The notes beneath the pieces are model-generated. The model did not search any database, was not told where the DNA came from, and saw only the letters and a list, made by a program, of their open reading frames with translations. The translations under genes and the position numbers were made by a program. Shown in pieces: positions 11,388 to 53,139 of a stretch of DNA of 64,000 nucleotides. This DNA is from a virus, in the IMG/VR virus record IMGVR_UViG_3300008266_007780, positions 28,433-92,432 of that record. One strand, 5' to 3'. The stretch's first letter is position 1. Every line of letters starts with the position of its first letter.

Positions 11388-11398
11388 TATATATTAAG

Positions 11399-17300: not shown

Positions 17301-20300
17301 CTCCTGGAAAAGGATTTAGAGCAGATCAAAGAGCAAGACAATTTATACAAAACACATTAAGTTTTGACTATGCTAAATCTAAGAACTACCAGGTAAGACC
17401 TTATGATGGAACGTTACATACTGCAATTCTTAGAGAGAAAAAAGTTGATTCTATTTATGCTCCAGAGTATAGAGAAGAACTGATAAAAGATTTTCTTCTT
17501 AGGTATAAGGACAACAAGACAATGTCCAAAGAACAAAAGAAGAAAAAAGCAGAAGAAGCTGCTGATATTGCTTTAGGAGAATACTTTGGTATGAAAGAAG
17601 CAGATGGTCAAGGACACATTACTTTTGAAGCCTATAGAATGCTTAAGTATCTTGAGGGTAACTGGTCAGATCCACAAGAGAAACTTTACCAAGAAATTGT
17701 TGAAGGTAAAGAAATCTCAGTAGCAGATGTAATAGAATACTTCCCTCCATACAAGCTTCAGTATTTTGGAAACATACAGACTACAGGTTTGTCACTCACA
17801 TCTTTTCATAAGTTCTCTCTTGCTCCTCTTATTCCTACTGTAACTGGTGCATCTAAACTTTCTCAGTTGCATGATAAGATGATGAAAGATCAGATTGAGT
17901 ATGTTGTATATGATTCAGGATCAAAGATTGGGCATATTAATGCTAGTGATAATCCAAAAGAATATGGTGACCAAATGTTTGATGCTGATGGTAATATAAT
18001 ACCGGATGCTAATTTCACTAAGAACATAATCTTTGCAGAATATCTCAAGAACCAGACAGAGATTAATAGCTCTTATAAAGAAAAGTCTATATTCTCAACT
18101 CAGATGCGTAAGCTTGTACTTGAAGGACTTTATGAAAAGGGTGTTATACAAAGTACAAAAGAAGATGAGATAACTGTACCAGCCGTACTCAATTATCTAA
18201 AACATGTAGATGAGTATAGTGAGGTTTTAAAGAATGAGCTCCTTAATGAAATTGGTTATAAAAAAGAGATTGTTGATGGTAAGGAAGTCTTCAAACCAAT
18301 TGATGCTAATAGTATTTCTAGACTAGTTGGTTTAATTAAGGATGAGCTTTCTAAAGATGACACTCTTGGAGAACATTTATTAGGACAGTTTATTAATGTA
18401 TATAAGACAACTGGTGAACTTGTTCATGATCTTTCGTTACATCCAGAAGCATCTAAGATTGAAAAGCTAGTACTGTCTCTTGTTAACAAAAGACTTATTA
18501 AACAAAAGGTTAACGGTGAACCACTAGTACAGGTATCAGCCTCTATGTATGAAGGTTTATTTGGCAGTCCTATTTCTGGTCTTAAAAAAGCAACTAATGC
18601 AGATATTAAAAAGTTTGTAGGATCAAACTTCTTACCTACTTATCATAAAAAAATTATTGATTTTGACACTAGGTATGAAAATAGAAGTGTTGATGATTTA
18701 AAAAGTTTCCTTGCAGCCAAAAAAAGAATACAAGAAGAGCAATCAGCATACTGGACAGATAGACATAAACAATCTCTTAGATATGAAATTCAATATTTAG
18801 AAGATAAAATAGCTGGTAGGAAACCAAAAAATTCAAAGATTATAGATGATACTACAGCAGCTATGAAAGTCATGGTTGCTCTTCAAGGTAACTTTGAACA
18901 CCTGCTTAATTTAAAGCATACTGATGGTAACAGAATTGGTACTATAGAACGTCTTAATGAAGTTATTAAAGATGACAATTGGTTAGATACAGATAACCAT
19001 AGAAAGTCTATTACAATGGTTGGTGTACGTATTCCAGTACAGGGTCTTAACTCTATGGAATTTATGGAAGTTTATCACTTCCTTCCACCAGAAGCTGGTA
19101 ATATTATTGTACCTCCTTCAGAAATTGTAGCTAAGTCAGGAGCTGACTTTGATATTGATAAGTTGACTACATATATGCCAAACATACAGGCAGATGGTCA
19201 ATATATCACAAGAAAGTATGAAACCGAAGATTTCTATAAGAGACTAGAAACAACAAAAGATTTTGAAAAACAGCTTTTATTTGATGAACAAAAGGCAGCA
19301 CTTCAGAATGAACTTATTAATGACTTAAGGAGTATTCTTGAGTTACCTCAAAACTATGCATCACTTGTTACACCGAATGGTACTTACTTACTCAAAGATA
19401 TTGCAGATGAGTTGTCAAAGTATGTTGCTGACTTTAATATCCATGAAAACATTTCTTCTGATGAATTTAATTATGATGAATCAGGTAAGAAGAAAGTGAT
19501 TAGTCCTACTAGGGTGCTTGAAGCTGGTTATAACTTGTACAAACATGAATCAAATGTAATCGGTAAAAAGACACTTGGTTTAGGTGCAGTTGAAAATACA
19601 TTCAATGTATTATTCAATGCTATTGGAGCCTACATGCCTGCTACTTACTTACATTCTGATGATGAGATGGAAAGAAGTATGGATTTACTTCTTAGGCATA
19701 ATAAGTTAATTAATAAAGCTGGAGAAGAAGTCATATCTCTTTCTAATAGATATGATGTAGATAACATAAATAAAATTGCTGATGTCTTTTCTCAGGCAAT
19801 GAACGGTTGGGTAGACGTTGAAAAGGATGCATGGATCTTCTTTATTCAGGGTAACTATGAAATTGCATCAACTCTTTTATATCTTATTAAAACTGGTGTA
19901 CCTGCAGAAGATGCAATTTACTTTGTTTCTCACCCGTTAATTAGAGAATATGTAAAAGAACAAAGACTTTCTAATAGTACTTTTGCTGAAGCACTAGGTG
20001 TTGCAACTAAACAAAATATGATTAAGAGTGAGGCAGCAAACCGAGTTCTTAAAAGACATTTTGGTGCAGGTGTCAAATCAAAAAGATATTATTACGAGAG
20101 AAAAAAGCTAAGTGAAAAACTTGATAATGTAACCTTTGATAAATCTAAAATGCTTGGGCTTATAAAAGCTGGTGCAAAAACAGAAGAAGGTGGATACACT
20201 AATCCTGGCATACTTGCTTCAGATTTATCTAAGTTAGCATTCTTGCACTTCCTTGAAATAGAACAGCAGATCACAGGTATTAAAAGACTTAAGATTGAAC

Positions 20301-33026: not shown

Positions 33027-34040
33027 TTAGAGTTTTACATTACCTACTGCTAGCTCATAGGGCAAGGTGTAATCTCTACTCTTGTAATGATACTCTAACT
33101 GTGTAAGAATATCATAGAAATTATCATACCACTTAGCCAGTGTTTCTTCAGACACTTGGAAAGGATAGACTTGGTTATACTTATCAATAACAATAAACGT
33201 AATTACAATCTTCCATTCTTCAGAGTCTGTTTTGTTTTTTATGAATTCATTATAAGCTAAAATTGAATAGATCACTGCTTGAATATCATAACGATAATAA
33301 TCAACTGAGTTTGGGAAATCCTGAATTGCTTTGTTAGTTGTCTTTAAGTCATTAATAAATAAAGTTTTGATGTTTTCATCTACAACAACATTGTCAAGGA
33401 TACCCTTGTAACCAAAATCATATTTGTCAGAATCAGACATCAATGGTAACTCCTTGAACACTGTGACATTCTGAGAGTTATCATGATCCAATTGAAGTAA
33501 AGCTTTAACCTTGTCATTGTTTCTGAGAACCTCAACTGATGTTTCTGCCTGTTGTTTTACTGCAGGGTCAATTACAGTTTTAGTATCTCTGATCTTTAAG
33601 AAATCAAAATATTCTTTGTTGTTGTCAGTGAGAATCTTCTCTACTCTTTGAGCATCAGTCTTGAGTGATTGATAAAGATTATTTGTGAGTAGCTGATTGA
33701 GTATCTCTTGCGGGAAGTCTTCCAAAGATAATGAATTATTATTCATTGGAACATAATGATTATTAAAAATATGATCAATAATCACCTTGTTACTTTCTGT
33801 TGGAATCTTACCCGGTAACATTACAAAGTAATCATCAAACTTATTTGGTTCAAACAGAAGACAGTGCAGTGCCCTACCCGCAATCAGGTGGGCATCTGTC
33901 TTATCTTCTTTCTGTTTCAGTATATAGTGACTATAAAAAGCTTGTGGTGAATACATAAGCTTGTTTATGCTACTATAACTGAAATAAAATTTCTCAGAAT
34001 AGAATCTTTCTAATTCCTCATTCAATATGCTCAGGCTCAT
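33027..34040 (-). CDS. PD-(D/E)XK exonuclease, RecB/Cas4-like (337 aa)
   Basis: Residues 54-65 (AGRALHCLLFEP) match the GxxxHxxxxxP helix of RecB/Cas4-type nucleases. Residues ~225-245 (GYKGILDNVVVDE then INDLKTT) supply the D...DxK catalytic pair, followed by the Y..DIQAVIYS helix. Such enzymes resect double-stranded DNA and act with recombinases in phage recombination. Here a Sak4-like ATPase and a candidate SSB are encoded in the same block. The 3' end of the upstream gene overlaps its start by 23 nt. Confidence 0.85.
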   Translation of the reverse strand: MSLSILNEELERFYSEKFYFSYSSINKLMYSPQAFYSHYILKQKEDKTDAHLIAGRALHCLLFEPNKFDDYFVMLPGKIPTESNKVIIDHIFNNHYVPMNNNSLSLEDFPQEILNQLLTNNLYQSLKTDAQRVEKILTDNNKEYFDFLKIRDTKTVIDPAVKQQAETSVEVLRNNDKVKALLQLDHDNSQNVTVFKELPLMSDSDKYDFGYKGILDNVVVDENIKTLFINDLKTTNKAIQDFPNSVDYYRYDIQAVIYSILAYNEFIKNKTDSEEWKIVITFIVIDKYNQVYPFQVSEETLAKWYDNFYDILTQLEYHYKSRDYTLPYELAVGNVKL

Positions 34041-41037: not shown

Positions 41038-41787
41038 TTAATCTACGAATACTTTGTCCCAGTAAGTCTTATACTCACCGGTCTCATCAATTTCAGAAAC
41101 CACAATTTCTTGATTTCTCAAATGCTCTGGTCTTGCACCACAAGAGATATCATCATTAGTCTTGAAACTAAGGATATTCTTATCTCCCTTTCTATACAAG
41201 TAACCAATAGCATCAGAGTTAGAAGTTGTTATTCTCTTTAACTTACCTGTCAGATCTAGGTCAAGTGCATTAAATGTACCACCTGCCTTTTCTAACTGAG
41301 TGTCTTTTACGTGACCAACAAAGATCACATAAGGAGCCCAAGTTAGAATGTAATCAATCACCTTAGTGAAGGCTTGTCTTGTCCAATAATAACCAGCACC
41401 TTCAGGTAGGCCAAGAATAGTTCCATACTTTTCTTTACCACCACCTGGATTAAACCAGTTCTTACCCATTGGACTCTTAGAATAAAGCACTTCAGCATAA
41501 GGTACTACCATCTCTTCCAATGCAGTGATTGTATCTACTGCAATGTACTTGTATGGATTGCCTGCTTCTTTGATAGCTTTTCCAATTTCTCTGATTTCTT
41601 CAAAGCTACTGGCCTCTACCTTCATAGAGTTAAGATACTTAGTACCTCCTTCTAAGTCTAAGATTAGACAGTTGTCAAGAGTGCTCAACAAACTTGTCTT
41701 ACCTATTTTAGGCTTAGAAAAGATAATTAGATTCTTAGGGCTCTTATGAGTAGGAGCTTGCTTTGTTGTTGGCAATACTATTCCCAT
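41038..41787 (-). CDS. Sak4-like RecA-fold ATPase (249 aa)
   Basis: NLIIFSKPKIGKTSLL (residues ~19-34) is a Walker A motif in the form used by Sak4/AAA_24 phage single-strand annealing ATPases, and CLILDLEGGTKY (~40-51) follows in the usual place. YIAVDTITALEE (~80-91) is Walker B. Such proteins promote strand annealing with an SSB. The next gene downstream is the candidate SSB, which agrees. It has 3 nt spacing from the upstream 176-aa gene. Confidence 0.88.
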   Translation of the reverse strand: MGIVLPTTKQAPTHKSPKNLIIFSKPKIGKTSLLSTLDNCLILDLEGGTKYLNSMKVEASSFEEIREIGKAIKEAGNPYKYIAVDTITALEEMVVPYAEVLYSKSPMGKNWFNPGGGKEKYGTILGLPEGAGYYWTRQAFTKVIDYILTWAPYVIFVGHVKDTQLEKAGGTFNALDLDLTGKLKRITTSNSDAIGYLYRKGDKNILSFKTNDDISCGARPEHLRNQEIVVSEIDETGEYKTYWDKVFVD

Positions 41788-43515: not shown

Positions 43516-44105
43516 ACTACTCTCTCACTAAAATGTGTTTCTGTGTAATCCCCGCCACCATTCTGATATACTTCACAATAGTTTGCTAGTTCAGATTCAA
43601 ATGATTTTTCTGCGGAGTTTTGTTTTCTGATAAAGTACTGTGATGTCCTCATGTACTTATATCCCTGCCTTTCATATTCATCTACATACATTTTTGTTGC
43701 ATTAATCACCGTCTCCCAATCATAATTGTGATTCTCAAAGAACCACCTAAAATTATTCTCTAAATTCTTCTTGTCAGTCCTAGCATATTTGCCAGATGGA
43801 AGTTTAAATTTAGGAAAAATTTCTAAATATTCATCAATTCTTTTGTCAAAATCTTCACCCATAATAGCAGAAGATGTTTTCTTCTTACTGTTTTTGAAGA
43901 ATGACTCTAACTCCTGTACTAAGACAAATGCTCTACCAGATAATTTACCATCTTCTAATAACCATCCATCATTAGTTAACCGCATATATTCTACGGTCAG
44001 GTTAAGATTAAACAAAGGACACATGTTATGCTTCTTACACCACAACAAATAAAGTTGATTAGGAGTAAGATCATTCTTAAGCAGTTTGTTAAAGATATCT
44101 ACCAT
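43512..44105 (-). CDS. Possible helicase loader/replication initiator (197 aa)
   Basis: The N-terminal ~60 residues (LTPNQLYLLWCKKHN, then EYMRLTNDGWLLEDGKLS) look like a winged helix. A helical region with WFFENHNYDWETVINATKMY follows, resembling the second half of DnaD/phage replisome organisers. Encoded just upstream of the DnaB-like helicase, it could load that helicase. The identification rests on overall pattern and context only. It overlaps ung by 7 nt. Confidence 0.7.
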   Translation of the reverse strand: MVDIFNKLLKNDLTPNQLYLLWCKKHNMCPLFNLNLTVEYMRLTNDGWLLEDGKLSGRAFVLVQELESFFKNSKKKTSSAIMGEDFDKRIDEYLEIFPKFKLPSGKYARTDKKNLENNFRWFFENHNYDWETVINATKMYVDEYERQGYKYMRTSQYFIRKQNSAEKSFESELANYCEVYQNGGGDYTETHFSERVV

Positions 44106-44812
44106 TCTATGTCAAATTTATAGTTTCTCTTTACTATCTCAGATGTCTGTTGAAAAACATTTTTACAATCCCATTCTTTTAAGTTGTTGTAACTTGCTGA
44201 AGCAGGGTGTGTTACATTGAACTTATAGTTGTTATCATTAACACAGTCTGACCACTCTTCTGCTTTTTTACCCATATAGATATACACAAGGCCTGGGTTA
44301 TTCCAAGATAACCAATCAAACACATAGGCTAAGAAAGGTCTCCATATAAGATAATGTTGACCTACCTTACCTACATTAGTTGTCAAAGCAGTATTAAGTA
44401 ACAACACACCTTGGTTAGCCCATCTTGTTAGATTTTTATCTCTGCATGCAGTTACACCGTTGTAAACAGTTCTGTTTATTGCATCAAACATATACTCTAA
44501 ACTTGGTTGCATATCATCAGTGTCTTTAAGACTAAATGCTATCCCATCAGCATGACCTAACCCTGGGTATGGATCCTGACCTACTACAACTACTTTTAAC
44601 TGATCATAGGGACACTCTTCAAATGCTCTAAACCAGTTCTTCATAGTAGGAGTAAATCTTTTACCATCTTGGGTTTGCTTTACTAACTGACTAACAATAG
44701 TCTCAAATTCTTTACTGTAGATAAATGTTCTTAGTACTCTTCCCCATCCTGATGGTTCTAGCTTAGCATGTATTTTGTCTTTTATTTCTTCAATATCAAG
44801 TTTGTAACTCAT
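44099..44812 (-). CDS. ung: Uracil-DNA glycosylase, family 1 (237 aa)
   Basis: VVVVGQDPYPGLGHADGIAFS (residues ~74-94) carries the water-activating GQDPYP motif, and VLLLNTALTT (~135-144) the substrate pocket. VTHPASASYNN (~214-224) corresponds to the HPSPLS motif in a variant form but keeps the catalytic His. It removes uracil from DNA. It ends in TAG, evidence that TAG is a stop in this phage. A + strand gene starts only 18 nt beyond its ATG. Confidence 0.93.
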   Translation of the reverse strand: MSYKLDIEEIKDKIHAKLEPSGWGRVLRTFIYSKEFETIVSQLVKQTQDGKRFTPTMKNWFRAFEECPYDQLKVVVVGQDPYPGLGHADGIAFSLKDTDDMQPSLEYMFDAINRTVYNGVTACRDKNLTRWANQGVLLLNTALTTNVGKVGQHYLIWRPFLAYVFDWLSWNNPGLVYIYMGKKAEEWSDCVNDNNYKFNVTHPASASYNNLKEWDCKNVFQQTSEIVKRNYKFDIEW

Positions 44813-44830
44813 AATTTTTATATTTGTGTT

Positions 44831-45145
44831 ATGGCAATTAAAGTAAAAGAACTTAAGAATGATGCACTTGTTGAAGTTAAAGTCAACAAGAGCTTTTATT
44901 TAATGGTAAAAGCTTTGTCTTACCATCTCTTTCAAACAATCAAAGATGATTCTGAAAGAGAAGAATCTCTAAAGAAAATTATGACTGGTAAGTATGAGGA
45001 TATGAATGACTTTGAAAGATCATTCTATACTACAACACTTTTACTAGCAGAAATAGAGAGACAAGCTCAGCAAAATAATCTTTATGATGAAAAAGAAATT
45101 CTTGAACCTGGTGATGAAGGTTATGTAGCACCTACCCAAGAATAA
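44831..45145 (+). CDS. Lone plus-strand gene in the minus block, unknown (104 aa)
   Basis: MAIKVKELKNDALVEVKVNK... followed by a helical, acidic protein ending EGYVAPTQE. The frame is open further upstream, but this ATG is chosen because coding character begins there and the upstream bases are the divergent spacer of ung. A TATATTTG sequence at 44819-44826 matches the Bacteroidetes -7 box (TAnnTTTG); the TTTG at 44801 is too near for a normal -33 box. It converges on the next gene with a 14-nt overlap. The function is unknown. Confidence 0.8.
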   Translation: MAIKVKELKNDALVEVKVNKSFYLMVKALSYHLFQTIKDDSEREESLKKIMTGKYEDMNDFERSFYTTTLLLAEIERQAQQNNLYDEKEILEPGDEGYVAPTQE

Positions 45146-45518
45146 TATTGTACTTACTAGCTAACTCATTTAATGCTTCTATAGCAAGAGTAAGCTCCAT
45201 AGTACTACAATCACCAAAGGATTTGCACATAGCTTTCTTTGTGCCATCATCATATATCTCATAACAAAGCCCGGCTTTCTCTTTGATAATAAGTTTCATA
45301 TCATCAAAGCTAAAACCTAATTCACCTGCAAGCTCTCTGATACTTGCATGTATTTTAGCAATCTGGGCAGCACTACCCTTCTTACCTTTTTTACAAATAA
45401 ATATTTCTACTTCTTCTCCTTCCTGTATCTTTTCTAAGAAGAGATTATACAAGAGCATATCTTTCTTATTAGAATAACCCAGCTTGGAGTTTTTCTTCAC
45501 TAAAGTTCCTGAAAACAT
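45132..45518 (-). CDS. Unknown protein, possibly NinB-like (128 aa)
   Basis: The layout KKGSAAQIAKIHASIRELAG, a central basic/aromatic part, then STMELTLAIEALNELASKY, resembles small phage recombination proteins such as NinB, but the match is only in general shape. It converges with the + strand gene and shares 14 nt at the 3' ends, so the two transcripts are partly antisense. Confidence 0.7.
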   Translation of the reverse strand: MFSGTLVKKNSKLGYSNKKDMLLYNLFLEKIQEGEEVEIFICKKGKKGSAAQIAKIHASIRELAGELGFSFDDMKLIIKEKAGLCYEIYDDGTKKAMCKSFGDCSTMELTLAIEALNELASKYNIILG

Positions 45519-45523
45519 AAGGA

Positions 45524-45781
45524 TTACATTTTATTCTTAGCCCACTTCTTATAGAGTAGAATTAGAGTTTGTATATCTTCTATATCTCTAATACATATCT
45601 CCAAGTCATAGCAGTAAACTACCCAATTCTTTTCACCGGCTTCATCACTAGCATTAGATGTCAAATCAAGAGCAGGTTCAAGATTAAGTGTATAGTAATA
45701 GTAATCACTTTGATCACCACTCTCTTCTACAAGAACATCAACTCTCTCAAATCCTTCTTCTATAAGTTCTTCTTCTCTCAT
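45524..45781 (-). CDS. Unknown acidic protein (85 aa)
   Basis: MREEELIEEGFERVDVLVEESG... A small acidic alpha/beta protein with the stretch SDYYYYTLNLEPALDL. Spacing is 5 nt downstream and 3 nt upstream. The start 'EEGFERVDV' recalls other small proteins of this block (EEGYERVYD in the 48485-48775 gene). No function is known. Confidence 0.7.
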   Translation of the reverse strand: MREEELIEEGFERVDVLVEESGDQSDYYYYTLNLEPALDLTSNASDEAGEKNWVVYCYDLEICIRDIEDIQTLILLYKKWAKNKM

Positions 45782-45784
45782 GAT

Positions 45785-46246
45785 TTATCTTTTATTAATT
45801 GGGTAATTCTTTACTACTTTATCAGAATAATTCATTACCAAATCTACAAACTCTTTTGATACATCTGTCTTATTCCATTTACCGTGAAGTTTAATTCTTT
45901 CTTCACGTTGTTTGTCAATGACAAGAAGAGCCATGTAGTAGTTATCCTCATCCTGAGACTCAAGCATAGATTCAATATTCTTCCCTTCATCTTCCTTGAG
46001 TATATTTAAAGATACTAATAAATTGATCTCAAAGATTAGAATGAAGGGTTTAAATTGATCTTGCTTTGTACCTTTTCTATACATCCACCATAAGTAATTT
46101 AGATTCTTACCAACAGGGGTTGTATCAACTAAGGTCATTTCAAAGTGTTCTTCTATAATTTTCTTTACCAAACTCTTTCTTTTACTTAGAGTTGCTTTGG
46201 ATATTTTTTTATCAATATCCCAATCACCACCTATACTAATTGCCAT
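45785..46246 (-). CDS. Unknown protein (153 aa)
   Basis: Soluble protein MAISIGGDWDIDKKISKATL..., basic then acidic, with a hydrophobic centre (FILIFEINLLVSLNIL). It directly abuts the radical SAM gene (1 nt). Nothing recognisable. Confidence 0.7.
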   Translation of the reverse strand: MAISIGGDWDIDKKISKATLSKRKSLVKKIIEEHFEMTLVDTTPVGKNLNYLWWMYRKGTKQDQFKPFILIFEINLLVSLNILKEDEGKNIESMLESQDEDNYYMALLVIDKQREERIKLHGKWNKTDVSKEFVDLVMNYSDKVVKNYPINKR

Positions 46247-46247
46247 A

Positions 46248-47117
46248 TCAGAAAATATATCTTATTGTGTTCCAAGGTATAATCTGGTCATGTAGCTCAG
46301 TAAACTGTTTAATATACTCAGCTTTTAGATCATGTTTATACCTGATATTCTTACCACCATACTCAGATATTTTACTCTCTTGTATTTCTGGTTTCCATAA
46401 TAGCTCCTCACCTGGTAGATTATGCTCTAGATTGTACAAATGTTTCTGTTCATTGTGTGTTAAGAAGATTACTTCAGCTTTGACATCATTAGTATCCCAG
46501 GCAAAAACATTTGCTCTTGCACTAACTGCATCAAACAAATCCCTGTAACTTTCTAACCAAAAAGCTTTTACAATGACAGGACTAAAATTAAGATGAACTT
46601 CATAGCCAGCATCAATAAACATATCAAGGGCTTCAATTCTTTCAAACGTAGAAGAAGTATTTGGTTCAAGTATTCTTCTATAATGTTCAGGCATAAGACT
46701 AAATCTAATTCTGATTTTACCTTCAGGATTAAACTTAAGTAAATCCTTATTTACATACTTAGTAGCAAATGAACCCATAGCAAGTGGATGATCTCTAAAG
46801 AATGCAAAGATCTTTTCCCATTCATGATATTTAGCATGCAGAGCAAAGTCTTCATTACAAGAAATATCATAAGTTACATACTCTCCCGTCTGATTTGGTT
46901 TCTCTACATCTGCAAAGTATGCATGTGAATTAATCTCCGTCAGGATATCCATAGTATTAGTTGCTATGCTTAATCCTTCCGGTTTGTGTCTCTTCATGTA
47001 ACAATAAGTACAGTTATAAAGACACCCGTGGCCAAAGCTTGGACTAATAAAGTCCGTACTACGGCCACTGGGTCTTATAACCATTGACTTTCTCTTAACC
47101 TTTGAAACTACTGCCAT
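46248..47117 (-). CDS. Radical SAM protein, spore photoproduct lyase-like (289 aa)
   Basis: GHGCLYNCTYCYMKRH (residues ~29-44) contains the CxxxCxxC motif for the [4Fe-4S] cluster that cleaves S-adenosylmethionine. IRIRFSLMPEHYRRILEPNT and AGYEVHLNFSPVIV match the core of the SPL subfamily. SPL itself repairs UV lesions in DNA, but many family members have unknown substrates, so DNA repair is inference. The start overlaps the 68-aa gene by 23 nt. Confidence 0.88.
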   Translation of the reverse strand: MAVVSKVKRKSMVIRPSGRSTDFISPSFGHGCLYNCTYCYMKRHKPEGLSIATNTMDILTEINSHAYFADVEKPNQTGEYVTYDISCNEDFALHAKYHEWEKIFAFFRDHPLAMGSFATKYVNKDLLKFNPEGKIRIRFSLMPEHYRRILEPNTSSTFERIEALDMFIDAGYEVHLNFSPVIVKAFWLESYRDLFDAVSARANVFAWDTNDVKAEVIFLTHNEQKHLYNLEHNLPGEELLWKPEIQESKISEYGGKNIRYKHDLKAEYIKQFTELHDQIIPWNTIRYIF

Positions 47118-47301
47118 CTCCCTTCTGAGGTGATATAACTAATCCATCTTGTATAACCTTATCCAAGATCTGTGTGTGTTGCGTAATAATAGTAGCATCT
47201 ACACCACCGGCAGCAACCTGCTTTACAATAGCTGTCTCAATATCATTTTCTGGAATAAGCACAATCTTAACTGTACCATTCATTAAAATCTCTACTCTCA
47301 T
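47095..47301 (-). CDS. Unknown small protein (68 aa)
   Basis: MRVEILMNGTVKIVLIPENDIE..., a small beta/alpha protein. It overlaps its neighbours by 23 nt (radical SAM) and 4 nt (secreted protein), which supports it as a translated member of the operon. No motif. Confidence 0.7.
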   Translation of the reverse strand: MRVEILMNGTVKIVLIPENDIETAIVKQVAAGGVDATIITQHTQILDKVIQDGLVISPQKGDGSSFKG

Positions 47302-47714
47302 AGTCTTTCAAGTATTGCTGTTAAGTTCTTATCTGACAAATAAAAGTATGATCCACTGGTGTAAATCATTACAGTTCCTAATGTCTTTCTTAGACTAATA
47401 TCTTTATTGTCTAATTCAACATTATACTCTTTATCTTCTGCTATTACTTGTTTGCAAAGTTCAAAGAACTGCCTAGTAGTTGTTGAATCACCGATGCTGA
47501 TGTAATCAATATCAGTAATTGCTGTATACTGAGCATTCTTGTAATAAATTGTGTAGCTTTCTACATCTTCAAGTTTAAACCTTACAAGTTTAGGTACTGG
47601 GTTTAACTTACTAAGTTGCCAAATAACAGTGTCTTTAGCTGCTTCTTTTACAACCAACTGTGCAGTTACATTAAATGTAACCAATGTCAATAAAACAAAT
47701 ACTAACTTTTTCAT
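47298..47714 (-). CDS. Predicted secreted/periplasmic protein (138 aa)
   Basis: MKKLVFVLLTLVTFNVTAQ is a classical signal peptide with likely cleavage after the Ala/Gln, as common in Bacteroidetes. The mature ~118 residues are beta-rich and acidic (YTIYYKNAQYTAITDIDYIS). A phage protein exported during infection could act on the envelope or in superinfection control; that is inference. No lipobox Cys is present. Confidence 0.75.
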   Translation of the reverse strand: MKKLVFVLLTLVTFNVTAQLVVKEAAKDTVIWQLSKLNPVPKLVRFKLEDVESYTIYYKNAQYTAITDIDYISIGDSTTTRQFFELCKQVIAEDKEYNVELDNKDISLRKTLGTVMIYTSGSYFYLSDKNLTAILERL

Positions 47715-47720
47715 AACTAA

Positions 47721-47810
47721 TCAATTAAACATTAAAAAACCAATTGCAATTCCCGCGAATATGCCTACTACAGTACCAATTGTGTACCATTTCTCATTAA
47801 AATCATTCAT
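47721..47810 (-). CDS. Single-pass membrane micropeptide (29 aa)
   Basis: MNDFNEKWYTIGTVVGIFAG then IAIGFLMFN and TGA. One Gly-rich transmembrane helix after a 7-residue polar N-terminus. It begins inside the 3' end of the upstream gene (8-nt overlap), typical of this cluster. Function unknown. Confidence 0.55.
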   Translation of the reverse strand: MNDFNEKWYTIGTVVGIFAGIAIGFLMFN

Positions 47811-47970
47811 CTTTATACATTTTATTATCCCAAAACGCATCACACTTACCTTCCTCATCAGGTTTAAAGTAACTATAGGATTGTAATCCTGGAGAAGGTG
47901 TAGCTGTGTATCTATAACACTTTTCTTTTAGAGGACATTCCTCATTTTCACATTTACTTATATCTGGCAT
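47803..47970 (-). CDS. Small Cys-containing protein (55 aa)
   Basis: MPDISKCENEECPLKEKCYRY..., with Cys pattern C-x4-C-x5-C and a fourth Cys near GKCDAFW; probably a small zinc-binding protein. Its ATG is preceded by the 19-nt sequence TTTAAATCAGAATAAGATG, which also precedes two further genes upstream. Function unknown. Confidence 0.65.
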   Translation of the reverse strand: MPDISKCENEECPLKEKCYRYTATPSPGLQSYSYFKPDEEGKCDAFWDNKMYKDE

Positions 47971-47981
47971 CTTATTCTGAT

Positions 47982-48152
47982 TTAAAAGTAATTACGTATA
48001 ATCAAATCTATTGCTGCTAACACAAGAGGAAATGTAAACACAGGCAATGCTATCCTTATCCACAATGGTATATCCTTTTGAGTTATACCAATTACTACTG
48101 CGGCCATAAATGCAATAAATATGCATGTGGCATTAATGATTACTATTGACAT
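47982..48152 (-). CDS. Small two-pass membrane protein (56 aa)
   Basis: MSIVIINATCIFIAFMAAVV then GITQKDIPLWIRIALP and TFPLVLAAID: two membrane helices joined by a short charged loop, ending IIRNYF. The sequence at 49261-49432 is a clear paralogue, sharing IPxWIRIxLP and TFPLVLA, but is frameshifted. It has the repeated TTTAAATCAGAATAAG leader. Function unknown. Confidence 0.65.
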   Translation of the reverse strand: MSIVIINATCIFIAFMAAVVIGITQKDIPLWIRIALPVFTFPLVLAAIDLIIRNYF

Positions 48153-48163
48153 CTTATTCTGAT

Positions 48164-48262
48164 TTAAAAAAATGAATCACTCACCTGATTAGGATCCTTG
48201 TGTAAACACTGTGTGGCATCATCAGTATAGCCTAACACCCGATTGCTGTTCTTGTGAATCAT
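48164..48262 (-). CDS. Short hypothetical peptide (32 aa)
   Basis: MIHKNSNRVLGYTDDATQCL then HKDPNQVSDSFF and TAA. Retained because it fills the space between two better-supported genes and its ATG carries the same leader. Coding evidence is modest at this length. Confidence 0.45.
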   Translation of the reverse strand: MIHKNSNRVLGYTDDATQCLHKDPNQVSDSFF

Positions 48263-48263
48263 C

Positions 48264-48362
48264 TTATTCTGATTTAAAGTAATTATATCTTTCCTCAACC
48301 CATTCTCTATTCTGAGCCATAGGTTCTAATTCATCAATAATAAAGTCACCAAAATCTAACAT
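48264..48362 (-). CDS. Short acidic peptide (32 aa)
   Basis: MLDFGDFIIDELEPMAQNRE then WVEERYNYFKSE and TAA. Its final codons (FKSE-stop) lie within the TTTAAATCAGAATAAG leader repeat of the next gene, so this may be the copy from which the other leaders were duplicated. Function unknown. Confidence 0.5.
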   Translation of the reverse strand: MLDFGDFIIDELEPMAQNREWVEERYNYFKSE

Positions 48363-48483
48363 CTGCTCTTTCTGTATCAAAGTCTTTTAGTTTTTCAAGG
48401 TCTTTTTTCCATTGAATTAAATTTTGTTTAAACCCAATCCACATGACAAATCCACCTATTGCAAATCCTAATATAAATCCCAT
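48346..48483 (-). CDS. Single-pass membrane protein (45 aa)
   Basis: MGFILGFAIGGFVMWIGFKQ forms an N-terminal membrane helix; a basic/acidic helix (LIQWKKDLEKLKDFDTERAD) follows, a layout like small phage membrane anchors. The 3' end overlaps the next gene by 17 nt. Confidence 0.55.
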   Translation of the reverse strand: MGFILGFAIGGFVMWIGFKQNLIQWKKDLEKLKDFDTERADVRFW

Positions 48484-48484
48484 A

Positions 48485-48775
48485 CTACTTCTTTTTAAAT
48501 TGTTGTATCCAAAGATTAAACTCACCTTCTGTAGGATTATCTAACTGACCTTTACAGTAAGCATTGTATGCAATAGTTCTTATCTCATCATAAGTGTACA
48601 TCCTTTCAGCTTGCCGTTTAGCACCTAATTTAAAAGAAGTGAAATCAAATTCAGTATAATCAATTGAGTCATATACTCTTTCATATCCTTCTTCAAGTGT
48701 TTCTTCAACAATAGGGTCAATACCAGCTATGTATTTAGACCTATCAAACTCTTGTTTATGTTCTTCTTGTTTCAT
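48485..48775 (-). CDS. Unknown acidic protein (96 aa)
   Basis: Mostly helical and charged, starting MKQEEHKQEFDRSKYIAGID, with YDEIRTIAYNAYCKGQLDNP and FNLWIQQFKKK at the end. The C-terminal pattern resembles short phage proteins of unknown role. Spacing of 1 nt on each side. Confidence 0.7.
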   Translation of the reverse strand: MKQEEHKQEFDRSKYIAGIDPIVEETLEEGYERVYDSIDYTEFDFTSFKLGAKRQAERMYTYDEIRTIAYNAYCKGQLDNPTEGEFNLWIQQFKKK

Positions 48776-48776
48776 A

Positions 48777-48914
48777 TCAAATCTTTTTAGTTAATATAAG
48801 GCATCCTTCTGAGTCAAGTTTTGGCACTGATTTATAAGTTGTAATCTTATCTCCACTACCCTTAACTCCCTTTACTGCACCAATCACTTTTGTTTTATCA
48901 ACAACTTTTTTCAT
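48777..48914 (-). CDS. Small basic protein (45 aa)
   Basis: MKKVVDKTKVIGAVKGVKGS..., Lys-rich with a beta-forming C-terminus (CLILTKKI). It overlaps the stop of the 112-aa gene by 4 nt and ends 1 nt before the next ATG. It is plausible by spacing, with no recognised function. Confidence 0.55.
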   Translation of the reverse strand: MKKVVDKTKVIGAVKGVKGSGDKITTYKSVPKLDSEGCLILTKKI

Positions 48915-49249
48915 CCAAAAGAAAGCTCATATATTGACATTATGTTCATAATATAAGCCATATCTCCTTTACTAAACACCTTGTCTTTATTCAACTCCAT
49001 TGCTTTGTTGAATCCTAATATGAAAGTATTTCTCATTTGATGTTGAGGGTGAAGCATATTGGAAGATTCTTTTTCAAAAATTGAATCTGCCAACTTCTCA
49101 ACATCAACTACTCCAAATATCTCATCACAGTTTTGTTTGGATAGTTTCTGTTTGTAATCTTCAGTAGATGCAAAGGTTACTCTCTTACCATCTTCATCAA
49201 TTTTATACAAGTCATAGTAGTCTTTTTCTTTAATCAGTTTTGCTTTCAT
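48911..49249 (-). CDS. Unknown protein (112 aa)
   Basis: MKAKLIKEKDYYDLYKIDED..., an N-terminal beta hairpin and then helices; FILGFNKAMELNKDKVFS resembles a segment common in small phage proteins. Its leader CTTTAAATTAGAGTAAGATG is a diverged copy of the leader found before the genes near 48 kb. Function unknown. Confidence 0.7.
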   Translation of the reverse strand: MKAKLIKEKDYYDLYKIDEDGKRVTFASTEDYKQKLSKQNCDEIFGVVDVEKLADSIFEKESSNMLHPQHQMRNTFILGFNKAMELNKDKVFSKGDMAYIMNIMSIYELSFG

Positions 49250-49260
49250 CTTACTCTAAT

Positions 49261-49432
49261 TTAAAGGTTTCTATAAATTGAATCTAATACTGCAAGAACC
49301 AAAGGAAATGTAAGCAATGGCAGAATAATTCTTATCCATATTGGTATATACTTTTCAGTAAATGCAATTACTATACATGAAATAAATAGTATTACTACTG
49401 ATAATACTGCAATTATGTGAAATACAATCATT
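49261..49432 (-). pseudogene. Frameshifted paralogue of the 47982-48152 membrane protein
   Basis: From ATG at 49432 the frame reads MIVFHIIAVLSVVILFI and then leaves the homologous frame at the AAAA run 49380-49383. With one base less there, it would continue SCIVIAFTEKYIPIWIRI, then LPLLTFPLVLAVLD to TAA at 49261. The intact paralogue has 57 codons (171 nt); this stretch is 172 nt. It is either a true 1-nt insertion or a consensus error in a short homopolymer. Confidence 0.6.
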
Positions 49433-49453
49433 TTCTTTGATTTTAAAAGTTTG

Positions 49454-49601
49454 TGCCTCCAGTGGGAATTGAACCCACCTATCAGATTACTCTAGGTTAC
49501 AGCATCTTTTTTCAAATCTCTACCGTCATAGAGTATGCTTGTTACATATTTCTATCTGAACCACTCACTGCTTCAGTTGCGACCCTAACAGCTATGGAGG
49601 C
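49454..49601 (-). tRNA. tRNA-like element of 148 nt with perfect acceptor and T arms
   Basis: Read on the minus strand, GCCTCCA (49601-49595) pairs perfectly with TGGAGGC (49461-49455), followed by a discriminator A; CCA is not encoded. Directly inside the 3' strand is a canonical T arm: GTGGG, loop TTCAATT, CCCAC. The 5' strand is followed by TA as in positions 8-9. The middle (~100 nt) does not fold as a normal cloverleaf: helices AGCAT/ATGCT enclosing CTCTA/TAGAG, and TCAGAT/ATCTGA, are possible. The insert may be an intron, or this may be a tRNA relic or another tRNA-like RNA. No anticodon can be assigned. Confidence 0.5.
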
Positions 49602-49609
49602 TTAAGTTT

Positions 49610-49807
49610 TTATTTTCTTGAATCTAAGTAATCTATAATAAACCCTACAGCAACAATTAGATTCATTCCAATTGAAGCTAAGATTTCATAAATATCTTCA
49701 TAGATATTAGTGGATAAATGAATATGACCCACCATCCAAAATGGTATGGACAAGTTTTGACTTATCCACACCACTAAGTATTTGAAAAAGTTAATCACCT
49801 CTTTCAT
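49610..49807 (-). CDS. Small two-pass membrane protein (65 aa)
   Basis: MKEVINFFKYLVVWISQNLS..., with a second apolar helix near the C-terminus (GMNLIVAVGFIIDYL). It is the gene just upstream of the tRNA-like element on this strand. Function unknown. Confidence 0.65.
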   Translation of the reverse strand: MKEVINFFKYLVVWISQNLSIPFWMVGHIHLSTNIYEDIYEILASIGMNLIVAVGFIIDYLDSRK

Positions 49808-49833
49808 TATTCACTCTCTGTATACAAATTGCT

Positions 49834-50049
49834 TTAGTTCTCACCATTGCTTTGCTTACAATCTCCATTCTGATCAGGTTCTCCAACACTGTTCTCCTTC
49901 TGGGACTGCAGATTTTTTTGATGTTCTTGCCATTCAGCATTTTCTATTTCCTTTTTGCGTAAGTATTCAGTTAAACTAAAGTTTTCTGGAAGTAGCCCAT
50001 TCTCTTGAACTACTTCCATGTAAATATCTTTCATTCTTCCCATGTCCAA
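49834..50049 (-). CDS. Small hydrophilic protein (71 aa)
   Basis: MDMGRMKDIYMEVVQENGLL..., helical and then low-complexity Gln/Asn/Glu-rich at the C-terminus. An alternative start is the Met at residue 6. It overlaps the next gene upstream by 19 nt. Function unknown. Confidence 0.65.
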   Translation of the reverse strand: MDMGRMKDIYMEVVQENGLLPENFSLTEYLRKKEIENAEWQEHQKNLQSQKENSVGEPDQNGDCKQSNGEN

Positions 50050-50375
50050 AGTTTTGTTGATGTGTCCTTCTTTGCAATAAGCTTTTCTTCTCCAGTCAAA
50101 TCTTCAAGTTTATACACCGGCATAGATAATTTTTCATCACTATAATAAGCTTCATTCTTATGACCTATTACAGCAGGAGGTGAATAGTCAGGTAAACAAT
50201 ACTTATCATGCAGTATCTCTGCCCAATTATGCGGTATATTAAACTCTCTGACAATTGTTGCTGGCTTATACCCAATCCTAACACAACACTTTATTCTTTC
50301 TAGTTTAGATTCTGGTATAGAGTTTAATACTCTTGTAATATAACCCTTACCATACTTAGTTTTTACTTTTGGCAT
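50031..50375 (-). CDS. Possible small DNA-binding protein (114 aa)
   Basis: I prefer the ATG at 50375 (MPKVKTKYGKGYITRVLNSI) over one 7 codons upstream (50396), because coding character begins there. The segment RIGYKPATIVREFNIPHNWA looks like a helix-turn-helix. The rest is acidic. The 3' end of the upstream membrane gene overlaps its start. A regulatory role is inferred from the possible HTH only. Confidence 0.6.
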   Translation of the reverse strand: MPKVKTKYGKGYITRVLNSIPESKLERIKCCVRIGYKPATIVREFNIPHNWAEILHDKYCLPDYSPPAVIGHKNEAYYSDEKLSMPVYKLEDLTGEEKLIAKKDTSTKLWTWEE

Positions 50376-50562
50376 CTTCAATGTCCATATATCCAATTAC
50401 AATACCCAACGGAAATATTGCAATACCTACTCCGCGTATTACTTCTGTTTTCAGGGGTACATCAAAATCACATTGACTAAACTTATACAGGTTGGCAAAC
50501 CATCCGTAGATACAAAGTACCCAGATAGCAAATCCAATCCATGCTGGCATTGATGTTTTCAT
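50356..50562 (-). CDS. Small two-pass membrane protein (68 aa)
   Basis: MKTSMPAWIGFAIWVLCIYGW then FANLYKFSQCDFDVPLKTEV and a second apolar helix (GVGIAIFPLGIVIGYMDI). It starts 18 nt downstream of the 89-aa gene. Function unknown. Confidence 0.65.
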   Translation of the reverse strand: MKTSMPAWIGFAIWVLCIYGWFANLYKFSQCDFDVPLKTEVIRGVGIAIFPLGIVIGYMDIEDAKSKN

Positions 50563-50580
50563 ACATTAAATTTTAAAGGT

Positions 50581-50850
50581 TTAAACTTGTTCCATTTCAA
50601 ACACTTCTTCCTTAGATAAAGCTTCAGCTAATTCAGTTGGTTTAAATCTATTAGCATCAAAGTACTCATATGGAAAGCAAGACTGGTCTAATTCTATTTC
50701 TTTTAGTTTTAGACCAATCTTGTTCTTCTGAATACTTAAATGGGACGCACCTATTACTGTATAGATTTGACCTTTTCTTATCCACTTCTCTTGAGGAATC
50801 TGTTTTGGTTTTCTTGAGTCATCAATACATATCACCTGCATACTCTTCAA
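50581..50850 (-). CDS. Unknown protein (89 aa)
   Basis: MKSMQVICIDDSRKPKQIPQ..., with a beta-barrel-like pattern WIRKGQIYTVIGAS...GLKLKEIELD, seen in small phage proteins of unknown role, then a helical C-terminus. It overlaps the next gene upstream by 29 nt. Confidence 0.7.
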   Translation of the reverse strand: MKSMQVICIDDSRKPKQIPQEKWIRKGQIYTVIGASHLSIQKNKIGLKLKEIELDQSCFPYEYFDANRFKPTELAEALSKEEVFEMEQV

Positions 50851-51076
50851 TTTCTACTTTAAGTTCTAATTGACTAAGATTAGCATGCATTTCAAGTATG
50901 TCTACTATATTGCCTGACTTGATATTACATTTACCTACATTGTGTGCTATCAATGCACACTGTTCAGCCTGGTCTCTTTCATGGTTACAATACCTTATAA
51001 GCAAGGCCATGACATAGAGAAAATCATTTTCTGAGTCATTGTATAAAACCAGCTGATGTGTCTTTTCCAAAACCAT
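50822..51076 (-). CDS. Unknown protein (84 aa)
   Basis: MVLEKTHQLVLYNDSENDFL..., helical, with HNVGKCNIKSGNIVDILEMH in the middle. The layout (VLYNDSENDFLYV near the start, conserved Cys/His residues) recalls adaptor proteins of the ClpS type, but the match is too weak to name it so. It starts 35 nt downstream of the SF2 helicase. Confidence 0.65.
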   Translation of the reverse strand: MVLEKTHQLVLYNDSENDFLYVMALLIRYCNHERDQAEQCALIAHNVGKCNIKSGNIVDILEMHANLSQLELKVEIEEYAGDMY

Positions 51077-51111
51077 ATTGTTTCAGTTAAATTAATAAAA
51101 AATCATGTACC

Positions 51112-52206
51112 TCAAAGTTTGATGTTAAAATCTTTCCAGGTGACTTTGTTTTGATCATACCCTTCAAGAGCTTCCTTAACCCATGCTTCATCTACAGTAT
51201 CCATGTAACATAGTATATGAACTACTGCTGTGTCATTAGGATTAAGTCTCAACAATCTACCAATTCTCTGGGCAGACTTTCTCTCATTACCATAGGCATG
51301 CATGATAATACCTTGCTTTAGTTCTGGGATGTTAACACCCTCATTCAACTGCATTACTGCAGCCAACTTAAGTATCTCACCTCTCTTAAACTTATTTAAG
51401 TTTTCTAAAGACTTAGAGTTATTACTATGATAACTATGTTCACAGAGTCTATCTGCTTGCTCCTGAGTATTAGCAAAGATAATACACTTGGTTTTAATAC
51501 TGTCAGAAAGAAGCTTTGCATACTTCTCTTTGCTTGGATAAGCCATAAGAGCTTTCATACGCATAATTCTTGCTATCTGCAGTCCTTTGCCACTAGCACC
51601 GGATATCCTATTAGACCAATAAGAATAGTTAGCCTGTTCTGTAGTCATAAAACCACCTGATTTGGTATCTACCTTAACATCTTTTGCTGTACCTAATTTG
51701 AGCTGGTGTACAATGATCTTATAGTCATTTAAGATATTATCCTCAATTGCATCATCAATAAAGTAATTGTAGACAATAGGACAAAACTCATTGACCATTA
51801 CACCTTTCTCAGAATGGCTTCTCTTTGGAGGAGTACCTGACAAACCTAATATCTTACCACTATAGTTCTCTAAGAACTCTCTATGAGAATCCAATAGACT
51901 ATGACACTCATCAAGATAGAGTAAATCATAATCTGCAGGATCATGTTTATTTAGACTTAAATAAGTGGTAAAAGTAACCTGGCTTAACAGCCTGTCTTTC
52001 TTAAACTTATGTGCTTGCACTTGCCATTCAGATAGAATACTTCTGGTTGGACCAACTACAAGAACATTTTTAAGAGGTGTACAATGTTGTTCAATATGTT
52101 TTAGGCCAACAAGGGTCTTACCGACCCCTGTGCCCAAACCCAAACCACATCTATGTCTACCTTCAGTAGCTTTCAATGCTTGTTCTTGTATCTCGTCTCT
52201 TGTCAT
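51112..52206 (-). CDS. SF2 DEAD/DEAH-box helicase (364 aa)
   Basis: Motif I is GLGTGVGKT (residues ~22-30). Motif II is YDLLYLDECHSL (~93-104), motif III is LGLSGTPPK (~120-128), and motif VI is AQRIGRLLR (~316-324). The protein is a short two-domain helicase without extra domains, of the type used in phage recombination or annealing (UvsW-like). It overlaps the ParB-like gene by 4 nt, so the two are co-translated. Confidence 0.92.
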   Translation of the reverse strand: MTRDEIQEQALKATEGRHRCGLGLGTGVGKTLVGLKHIEQHCTPLKNVLVVGPTRSILSEWQVQAHKFKKDRLLSQVTFTTYLSLNKHDPADYDLLYLDECHSLLDSHREFLENYSGKILGLSGTPPKRSHSEKGVMVNEFCPIVYNYFIDDAIEDNILNDYKIIVHQLKLGTAKDVKVDTKSGGFMTTEQANYSYWSNRISGASGKGLQIARIMRMKALMAYPSKEKYAKLLSDSIKTKCIIFANTQEQADRLCEHSYHSNNSKSLENLNKFKRGEILKLAAVMQLNEGVNIPELKQGIIMHAYGNERKSAQRIGRLLRLNPNDTAVVHILCYMDTVDEAWVKEALEGYDQNKVTWKDFNIKL

Positions 52207-52973
52207 TTTGGTAAATTGAAAATTCTTTTTCTTATATAAGCTCCACTTTCTTCTGAATTAGCAATAAGCTTTACAGTTTTGATGTGCTTATCAAGATTTG
52301 CCATTACTTTTTGATGACTGTATGTACTGTAAGCTTGTAAAAAAGCATGAAGAAACTGAAATTTAACAGGTCTGTCTACATTACCAATCTTTATAAAGAT
52401 CTCATTAAATGCTTTACACATTTGCTCAGCTTGTGGATTAGTAATAATAAAGTTACCTGTTTTAATGATGGATGTATTATGTCTAATTGCAATGTTATTG
52501 ATAGCTATCATTGCAAGCATAGTAACTTCAATATCATACATATTCTTCCACTTAAATAACTTCATGTAATCAGGACGAATCATTTTCCATGCATTGATAA
52601 AATCCATCATGTCCCATGACTTACTTGAATTATTCATATAGGCCATAATCTCAATTAATTCTTCTTCAGACTGAACAGATCTTTCAATATAAGGAATAGG
52701 TAAACCCTCTCTTTCAAGAGCAGTAGCTAAGTGTTGACCATCAATAATATAAGTCTTCATTGTACCCTCTATTAGATTTGTAGTAGTAGTAATAACAGTT
52801 CTAACTACTCCAATTTTCCTCATACTTGCAATCATTTTCTGTACATGTTTACTATCTATTGCTCTATTCATTGGCAATACAGCAAACTTTGAGTAATCAT
52901 TTGCATACTTAATTTTAAGTTCTTTTCCAATCATTTCCATAATCATAATTTTTAAGTTGTTAGATTTTCTCAT
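52203..52973 (-). CDS. ParB/sulfiredoxin-fold protein (256 aa)
   Basis: Residues ~35-95 (SKHVQKMIASMRKIGVVRTV, then YIIDGQHLATALEREG) match the ParB N-terminal nuclease-like fold, with DGQH in the place of the usual DGxxR box. The C-terminal part is helical. In phages such proteins bind or nick DNA or modify partners with NTPs; CTP-switch partition function is not implied. The start overlaps the 59-aa gene by 14 nt. Confidence 0.85.
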   Translation of the reverse strand: MRKSNNLKIMIMEMIGKELKIKYANDYSKFAVLPMNRAIDSKHVQKMIASMRKIGVVRTVITTTTNLIEGTMKTYIIDGQHLATALEREGLPIPYIERSVQSEEELIEIMAYMNNSSKSWDMMDFINAWKMIRPDYMKLFKWKNMYDIEVTMLAMIAINNIAIRHNTSIIKTGNFIITNPQAEQMCKAFNEIFIKIGNVDRPVKFQFLHAFLQAYSTYSHQKVMANLDKHIKTVKLIANSEESGAYIRKRIFNLPK

Positions 52974-53139
52974 TCTTAATCAATAGACTGTTTGCATACA
53001 GTGTGTTCTTAAATGCAGCAATAGCAAGCTTCCCAGCTTCAATTTTACCACTCTTATTGAATGTGTCATATGCCTTGTTGCCAATTTGTTCTGACTTATC
53101 AGCAACATCCTTAATCTGTTTTGTGTTTACTTTGCTCAT
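52960..53139 (-). CDS. Small unknown protein (59 aa)
   Basis: MSKVNTKQIKDVADKSEQIG..., basic and helical, ending LLIKNEKI. Overlaps both neighbours (14 nt and 29 nt), as expected for a member of this dense operon. Function unknown. Confidence 0.6.
   Translation of the reverse strand: MSKVNTKQIKDVADKSEQIGNKAYDTFNKSGKIEAGKLAIAAFKNTLYANSLLIKNEKI

Follow-up and report, generated by a model that had tools for sequence, protein, structure and literature searches.

The recurrence of one short sequence directly before several consecutive small genes raises the question of what it does there, and of whether it marks the start of translation, preserves the trace of a duplicated gene or serves as a joint at which genes are exchanged. 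The locus concerned belongs to a virus record of 92,432 bases, of which bases 28433-92432 were analysed; this whole stretch of 64,000 nucleotides is referred to below as the window.

Leader copies and small genes of the window

Scanning the window for the 19-mer TTTAAATCAGAATAAGATG, hereafter the leader, recovered the three exact copies that the initial annotation had placed before the genes starting at 47970, 48152 and 48262, all of them on the minus strand, together with its diverged copy before the 49249 start. Each of these four copies ends at the ATG of a small minus-strand gene, and in each of them the stop codon of the upstream gene lies inside the repeat. A fifth match at 15305 (+) has three mismatches and looks like a chance occurrence; in shuffled sequences the mean number of matches with up to three mismatches was 0.13, and none of the 100 shuffles reached five. 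The copies and the genes related to them are the following.

Leader copy 1, 47968..47986 (-): exact; before the 55-aa gene starting at 47970; its TTTAA ends the 48152 gene
Leader copy 2, 48150..48168 (-): exact; before the 56-aa gene starting at 48152; its TTTAA ends the 48262 gene
Leader copy 3, 48260..48278 (-): exact; before the 32-aa gene starting at 48262; codes for the FKSE-stop end of the AVEWL remnant
Leader copy 4, 49247..49265 (-): two mismatches; AGAAACC before the leader, as in an AVEWL-type tail; 112-aa gene at 49249 after it
47803..47970 (-): 55-aa Cys-containing gene; phrog_20586, unknown function
47982..48152 (-): gene of a 56-aa hydrophobic protein, paralogue of the 49431 gene
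48164..48262 (-): 32-aa gene (MIHKNS..) between copies 3 and 2; an unrelated 33-aa gene stands instead in contig L126
48264..48373 (-): 3' remnant of an AVEWL-family gene (..KEQMLDFGDF..NYFKSE-stop); 5' part missing by comparison with three near-identical contigs; still matched by the AVEWL profile
48911..49249 (-): 112-aa gene behind leader copy 4
49261..49431 (-): 56-aa paralogue of the 48152 gene
33027..34040 (-): exonuclease VIII-like protein, a putative partner of the annealing protein
41038..41787 (-): Sak4-like single-strand annealing protein, a candidate recombinase for exchange at short repeats

The upstream stop is of the TTTAA type in copies 1, 2 and 4 and of the AATAA type in copy 3, where the leader does encode, as had been noticed, the FKSE-stop end of the upstream gene. 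Copies 1 and 3 also have TAATTACTTT in common directly before the leader, save one T, and a CC before the leader is absent from the exact copies 1-3 and present only in copy 4. The paralogues starting at 48152 and 49431 show 54% identity over 50 residues, their DNA 73% over 98 nt. Pfam gave no match for four small proteins, one of them a 40-residue fragment, and PHROGs a single match to a family of unknown function. Elsewhere in the window, two giant ORFs of 2599 and 3610 aa occupy positions 3588-22231 (+), an arrangement which we take to be typical of crAss-like phages.

Distribution of the leader and the genes that it joins

The exact 19-mer occurs in at least 120 stretches of IMG/VR, the control composed of the same 16 bases reversed and followed by ATG in none. 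In a collection of 84,980 genomes, six stretches match the 19-mer, including one from Flavobacterium cheongpyeongense (L132) and one from a Flavobacteriales MAG with an AVEWL-like upstream gene, the remaining ones being labelled as Prevotella, Firmicutes, Acetofilamentum and Diapherotrites MAGs. In a phage collection, a near-identity search with window positions 44000-53000 found no match and a DNA search with the 101-nt leader region five chance-like ones. In the cultured group of Flavobacterium elemo phages (68 records), one record was seen to carry an AVEWL gene ending YYNEKFKK-stop, with TAAGAT as stop and spacer before the next ATG, a diverged form of the junction. Owing to the Flavobacterium and Flavobacteriales genome matches and to this elemo phage gene with its diverged junction, the hosts of the leader phages are likely Flavobacterium-like. 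Among 199 genomes of the genus that the L132 record gives, Flavobacterium, the leader with at most one mismatch is found in 16 and the control in one, a weak signal in which one match is exact and the mismatch destroys the ATG in four; the AVEWL profile matches three of the 199, one convincingly. The genome of L132 itself contains four leader matches at up to two mismatches against three for the control, and thus no excess. Its single exact leader, at 4391-4414 of a host chromosome record, is preceded by TAACT as in many phage copies, and the adjoining genes have similar GFY-containing sequences.

Twenty listed contigs of at least 55 kb were available for a comparison of lineages, of which L095, near-identical to the window, was left out. 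Among the other 19, the DNA polymerase of the window is matched in nine and a second large window protein in 11, and neither of them in eight, including a 224-kb contig with nine leader copies and a 67-kb contig with eight, copies being counted at up to two mismatches. The leader thus apparently spans several phage lineages, a conclusion that is suggested rather than proven because the contigs may be fragments. All copies lie on one strand in each of the 19 contigs, several of which hold a single copy. A sub-form in which TAG replaces TAA (TTTAAATCAGAATAGAATG) is exemplified by G211 and G213 and amounts to 24 non-redundant copies. The 16-mer was not found in the papers searched, and no such leader is mentioned in the titles and beginnings of abstracts that were listed.

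The junctions were studied in 120 IMG/VR loci plus the window, most loci being chosen by the presence of the leader. With at most one mismatch, they contain 186 copies, which stand for the most part in the form (A/T)AACC-TTTAAATCAGAATAAG-ATG. The 165 downstream proteins of at least 25 aa fall into 88 families, defined as single-linkage similarity groups. An upstream protein was available for 173 junctions, 156 of them distinct as the loci are partly redundant; after trimming of the frames to remove the translated leader, the AVEWL profile identifies AVEWL as the commonest upstream family (97 of 173). FKSE is the end of 90 of these 97 proteins and of 101 of the 173 overall. The 87 proteins that follow AVEWL carriers belong to 49 families, and the 76 upstream proteins other than AVEWL to 56. 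AVEWL proteins also occur downstream of the leader (22 of 165).

The AVEWL family is large and unannotated, with proteins mostly of 60-110 aa that display three conserved blocks separated by variable spacers (e.g., L085, L155-L233). Its consensus reads M(K)QTAVEWL...AKEMEKEQI...YYNETFKSE, and the 3' end of the gene, typically ..YYNETFKSE-stop, carries the leader. The predicted structure is helical (mean pLDDT 80.6), the one member searched had no match in Pfam or PHROG, and tandem copies occur in L085. Protein search alone yields at least 456 relatives; from the best 80 of them, 68 AVEWL ORFs were read in 61 of 79 new loci, and as only 19 of these ORFs end in FKSE and 23 have an ATG one base past the stop, the junction is frequent among AVEWL genes without being universal. 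A second junction form is found in L190, L193 and L226, and similarly in L174, where the ATG that starts a MKAKLTFNLP-type gene overlaps the tail ..ETYESKTNI in a different frame. Several codons are fixed beyond codon usage in all AVEWL blocks, and the fixed FKSE codons alone were consequently dropped as proof of a function of the leader, the other blocks being equally fixed.

Among 133 distinct exact copies, 92 form coding tails and 41 have no long frame running into AATAA. The 19-mer is preceded by AAACC (53) or TAACC (11) in the former and by TAACC (21) or AAACC (8) in the latter, and of the two positions immediately upstream of the leader, C occupies the one in 85 and the other in 69 of the 92 coding tails, and each of them in 32 of the 41 others. 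This common CC is counted here as evidence pointing to a shared ancestry of the copies. The suggestion that the FKSE end is the source copy is plausible, considering that AVEWL is the main carrier and that copies 1 and 3 share additional sequence; the direction of copying lies outside that support.

Some of the joined elements are tRNA-like. Contig L101 carries between two leaders an element of 79 nt that shows a T arm and an acceptor stem of 7 bp, and L007 and L052 one of 144 nt, the same flanks being present in L068. None of the elements of L101, L007, L052 and L068 is called by ARAGORN at its default settings; that of L101 is recovered in mitochondrial mode, and the L007 and L052 elements in intron mode. 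We describe these elements as tRNA-like rather than as proven tRNAs. In the window, the 49431 gene is closely preceded by a 147-nt tRNA-like element (49455-49601, minus strand), which again has an acceptor stem of 7 bp and a T arm; the long-tRNA/intron mode of ARAGORN reads it as a Phe tRNA with a 57-nt insert, the elements of L007 and L052 being similar, and default ARAGORN and Rfam at gathering scores report nothing over the whole window.

Apparent exchange of genes at the junction

The closest relatives of the window, the near-identical contigs L127-L129, are 99.6-100% identical to it in the region of the cluster, two segments of 97 bp and 61 bp excepted. The 97 bp are carried by L127, L128 and L129 and missing from the window at 48373, a loss that leaves its AVEWL gene 5'-truncated; the 61 bp are missing at 48915/48916 by comparison with L127 and L129, which shortens the end of the 49249 gene. 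Contig L126, which begins inside an AVEWL-type tail, is 95.5% identical to the window over 1167 nt from 48167 downwards. Its different 33-aa gene, located behind an exact leader, replaces the 32-aa gene of copies 3-2, and similarity resumes at the leader, which has one change before its homologue of the 48152 gene. In three more divergent relatives, similarity to the 47970 gene likewise starts at the edge of the leader, L141 at 47986, L142 at 47984 and L009 at 47989, with different genes upstream, L009 having been found by the leader and lying outside the 18 loci found with the 47970 protein. Those 18 comprise four from the same or a near phage, two with a recognisable leader (L141 with three mismatches and L142 with two) and 12 with unrelated leaders (L143-L154), which are 40-63% identical except for L154, 76% over only 21 residues. 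Homologues of the 47970, 48483 and 49249 genes occur both with and without the leader.

Whether similarity between loci tends to end at leaders was quantified by a break fraction, the mean share, among the loci sharing DNA beside a site, of those whose similarity starts at that site. For downstream sharing it reaches 0.72 at 111 leader sites against 0.39 at 711 other starts, and for upstream sharing 0.74 at 118 leader sites against 0.37 at 678 other starts. With 334 starts of small genes possessing a close upstream stop, within 1.5 kb, as a matched control, the values are 0.72 vs 0.47 and 0.74 vs 0.46, rising to 0.90 vs 0.55 and 0.86 vs 0.52 for alignments of at most 97% identity and to 0.97 vs 0.61 and 0.95 vs 0.57 for those of at most 90%. 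Permutation of the sites gave p = 0.0002, the minimum possible with 5000 permutations and a value that is not exact, given that several sites may fall in one locus and that possession of the leader was the criterion for choosing loci. In raw counts, similarity starts number about 88 near leaders and 35 near other starts per 100 sites, and similarity ends about 46 and 40, so that the ends are hardly enriched, only shifted in position. Non-coding copies have a lower upstream break fraction (0.59, 33 sites). In these leader-selected loci breaks therefore exceed those at other gene borders, the raw counts being clear only for similarity starts.

The initial annotation had proposed stepwise gene insertion or recombination at the repeat. 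Exchange is well supported by the swap in L126, by L009, L141 and L142 and by the excess of breaks; as for stepwise insertion in the window, that one swap is the sole case. The same genes behind unrelated leaders, which it had named as the observation contrary to its proposal, do occur at greater distance, in 12 of the 18 loci.

A proposed portable junction, its rivals and its known counterparts

We consider it rather probable that the 19-mer forms the core of a gene junction that is portable, spreading as DNA between phages whose hosts are probably Flavobacterium-like, and that acts as a stop-start linker, a favourable start and a patch for exchange. The leader, observed directly before the starts of many unrelated small genes, ends upstream frames by its TTTAA and AATAA stops and, in a TAAC sub-type, closes the third frame as well. 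The fixed adenines and the ATG just past the stop may then provide a good start in a host devoid of Shine-Dalgarno pairing, probably by coupled re-initiation, as base conservation and the literature on F. johnsoniae suggest. Homologous recombination could in turn swap whole genes at the leader with their reading frames undamaged, in keeping with the observed pattern, and might be driven by an annealing protein of the phage, for example the Sak4-like protein of the window. Such whole-gene exchange is possible because the same 19-43 bp stand at many gene borders. The main carrier would be the small, fast-varying AVEWL family, whose last codons (YYNETFKSE) supply the upstream half of the junction. 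Both the enhancement of translation and the mechanism of recombination are what we infer from sequence comparison. The Sak4 protein of phage HK620 is reported to anneal single strands, though poorly in the absence of its SSB (PMC5928155), and we infer that the Sak4-like protein of the window may act at the leader.

With respect to translation, the leader has adenines at -3, -6, -12 and -13, which are reported to be positive determinants of translation in F. johnsoniae (PMC6847099). In non-exact copies (up to three mismatches, ORF of at least 20 codons), changes concentrate at -1 (54), -16 (29), -2 (28), -15 (22), -7 (11), -9 (9), -10 (7) and -5 (3), with one each at -14, -8, -4 and -3 and none at -13, -12, -11 and -6; the conservation at -13 and -12 has two possible causes, since both adenines are also part of the TAA stop. 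An ATG stands at leader distance in 185 of 193 exact 14-mers, in loci each chosen for at least one such copy. A general model of start contexts in these loci places the leader only at the 60th percentile. Among 1107 starts of ORFs of at least 100 aa, 11 lie within one or two bases of the leader when the position model predicts none, seven further exact leaders having been set aside because the loci were selected for exact copies. A copied element accounts for these 11 starts and the mid-range score better than the tail of a preference. Of 195 leaders, 37% have stops in all three frames within 24 nt, including all 49 TAAC-type copies, against 13% of 1942 other starts, and the third-frame-closing TAA is present in 24 of the 41 non-coding copies against 14 of the 92 coding tails. 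A stop in the one frame whose extension would lead to fusion with the downstream gene is present in only 38% of leaders but at 70% of other starts, a control figure raised by the way in which those starts had been chosen, namely as the first ATG to follow a stop. The stop adjoining the start suggests coupling; in Haloferax and E. coli, strict coupling is reported for 13 of the 14 overlapping gene pairs examined (PMC6728339).

These data bear in different ways on the other explanations. The invariant adenines and the position fixed at the ATG would also be expected of a translation signal only, to which genes converge as to the same start context, exchange being incidental; this is nevertheless unlikely in view of the starts at 1-2 bases from the leader that the position model does not predict, the mid-range score, the upstream CC common to most copies and the copies that precede tRNA-like elements. 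It is still less likely that the leader is a functionless trace, left in the junction by AVEWL genes that duplicate and decay to their conserved 3' end. The predominance of AVEWL tails among the carriers, the codons fixed in all AVEWL blocks and the fact that window copy 3 itself belongs to a truncated AVEWL gene fit such a trace, but imperfect copies keep the positions relevant to translation, the third-frame-closing TAA is concentrated in non-coding copies, and the 76 non-AVEWL upstream proteins would have to be accounted for.

A phage promoter or operator, from which leaderless mRNAs would start at the ATG, appears highly improbable; copies directly before tRNA-like elements would suit it, but the position is locked to the ATG, the core holds upstream stop codons or coding sequence, and a scan around the window copies, limited to sigma-70 types, found 10 promoter-like sequences against 11.0 expected. 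Assembly errors caused by the repeat would be the least credible source of the mosaic joints, and we regard them as extremely unlikely: in 61 whole-contig loci, eight of 80 copies lie within 150 nt of contig ends against 3.33 expected, but the leader arrangement of the window recurs in three near-identical contigs, and a comparable, if diverged, junction follows an AVEWL gene in the cultured group of Flavobacterium phages.

The portable junction recalls several known systems. T4-type mobile regulatory cassettes (Arbiol 2010) are similarly small and intergenic and are thought to mediate shuffling. Cassettes of this kind combine a promoter with a stem-loop, whereas the copies of the window have no more folding potential than shuffled sequence and no excess of sigma-70 promoters. 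The boundary sequences in the nin region of lambdoid phages are likewise short and conserved, lie at gene borders and have been proposed to act as joints for recombination; the host group and the initiation system are different there. The Kozak-like regions of F. johnsoniae share the four adenines and consist of a loose base preference, whereas the leader is a fixed sequence of 16 nt copied as a unit (PMC6847099).

In position and behaviour, the leader is closest to the SAS of cluster K mycobacteriophages, for which a role in translation has been proposed (PMC3203893). Like the leader, SAS is a short, conserved, asymmetric repeat just before the starts of many gene families, mostly in one orientation and in the non-structural half of the genome, sometimes with the upstream stop inside, and one gene family may occur with or without it. 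The leader is not a member by sequence, since SAS is a 13-bp repeat of the GGGATAGGAGCCC type with a Shine-Dalgarno core, to which the leader, devoid of AGGAG, is unrelated (PMC3203893). Moreover, SAS is nearly confined to cluster K, whereas the leader has an apparently wider spread over lineages (PMC3203893), and, unlike SAS, the leader is found at mosaic joints and doubles as the coding 3' end of a single gene family.

A bolder form of the portable junction, which we put forward tentatively and hold to be somewhat unlikely, would make of it a plug-in joint that closes frames and restarts translation, at which annealing recombination exchanges almost any small or tRNA-like gene, AVEWL being the vehicle that keeps the joint uniform across unrelated phages. 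If true, such a joint would work like an integron cassette array without a dedicated integrase. The portable junction itself brings together two questions usually kept apart, namely how starts are marked by phages whose hosts dispense with Shine-Dalgarno sequences and how small genes are exchanged without breakage. The leader is a searchable marker for exchangeable genes in these phages, it points to a large unannotated family, and with it the gain and loss of genes at a defined joint becomes directly testable.
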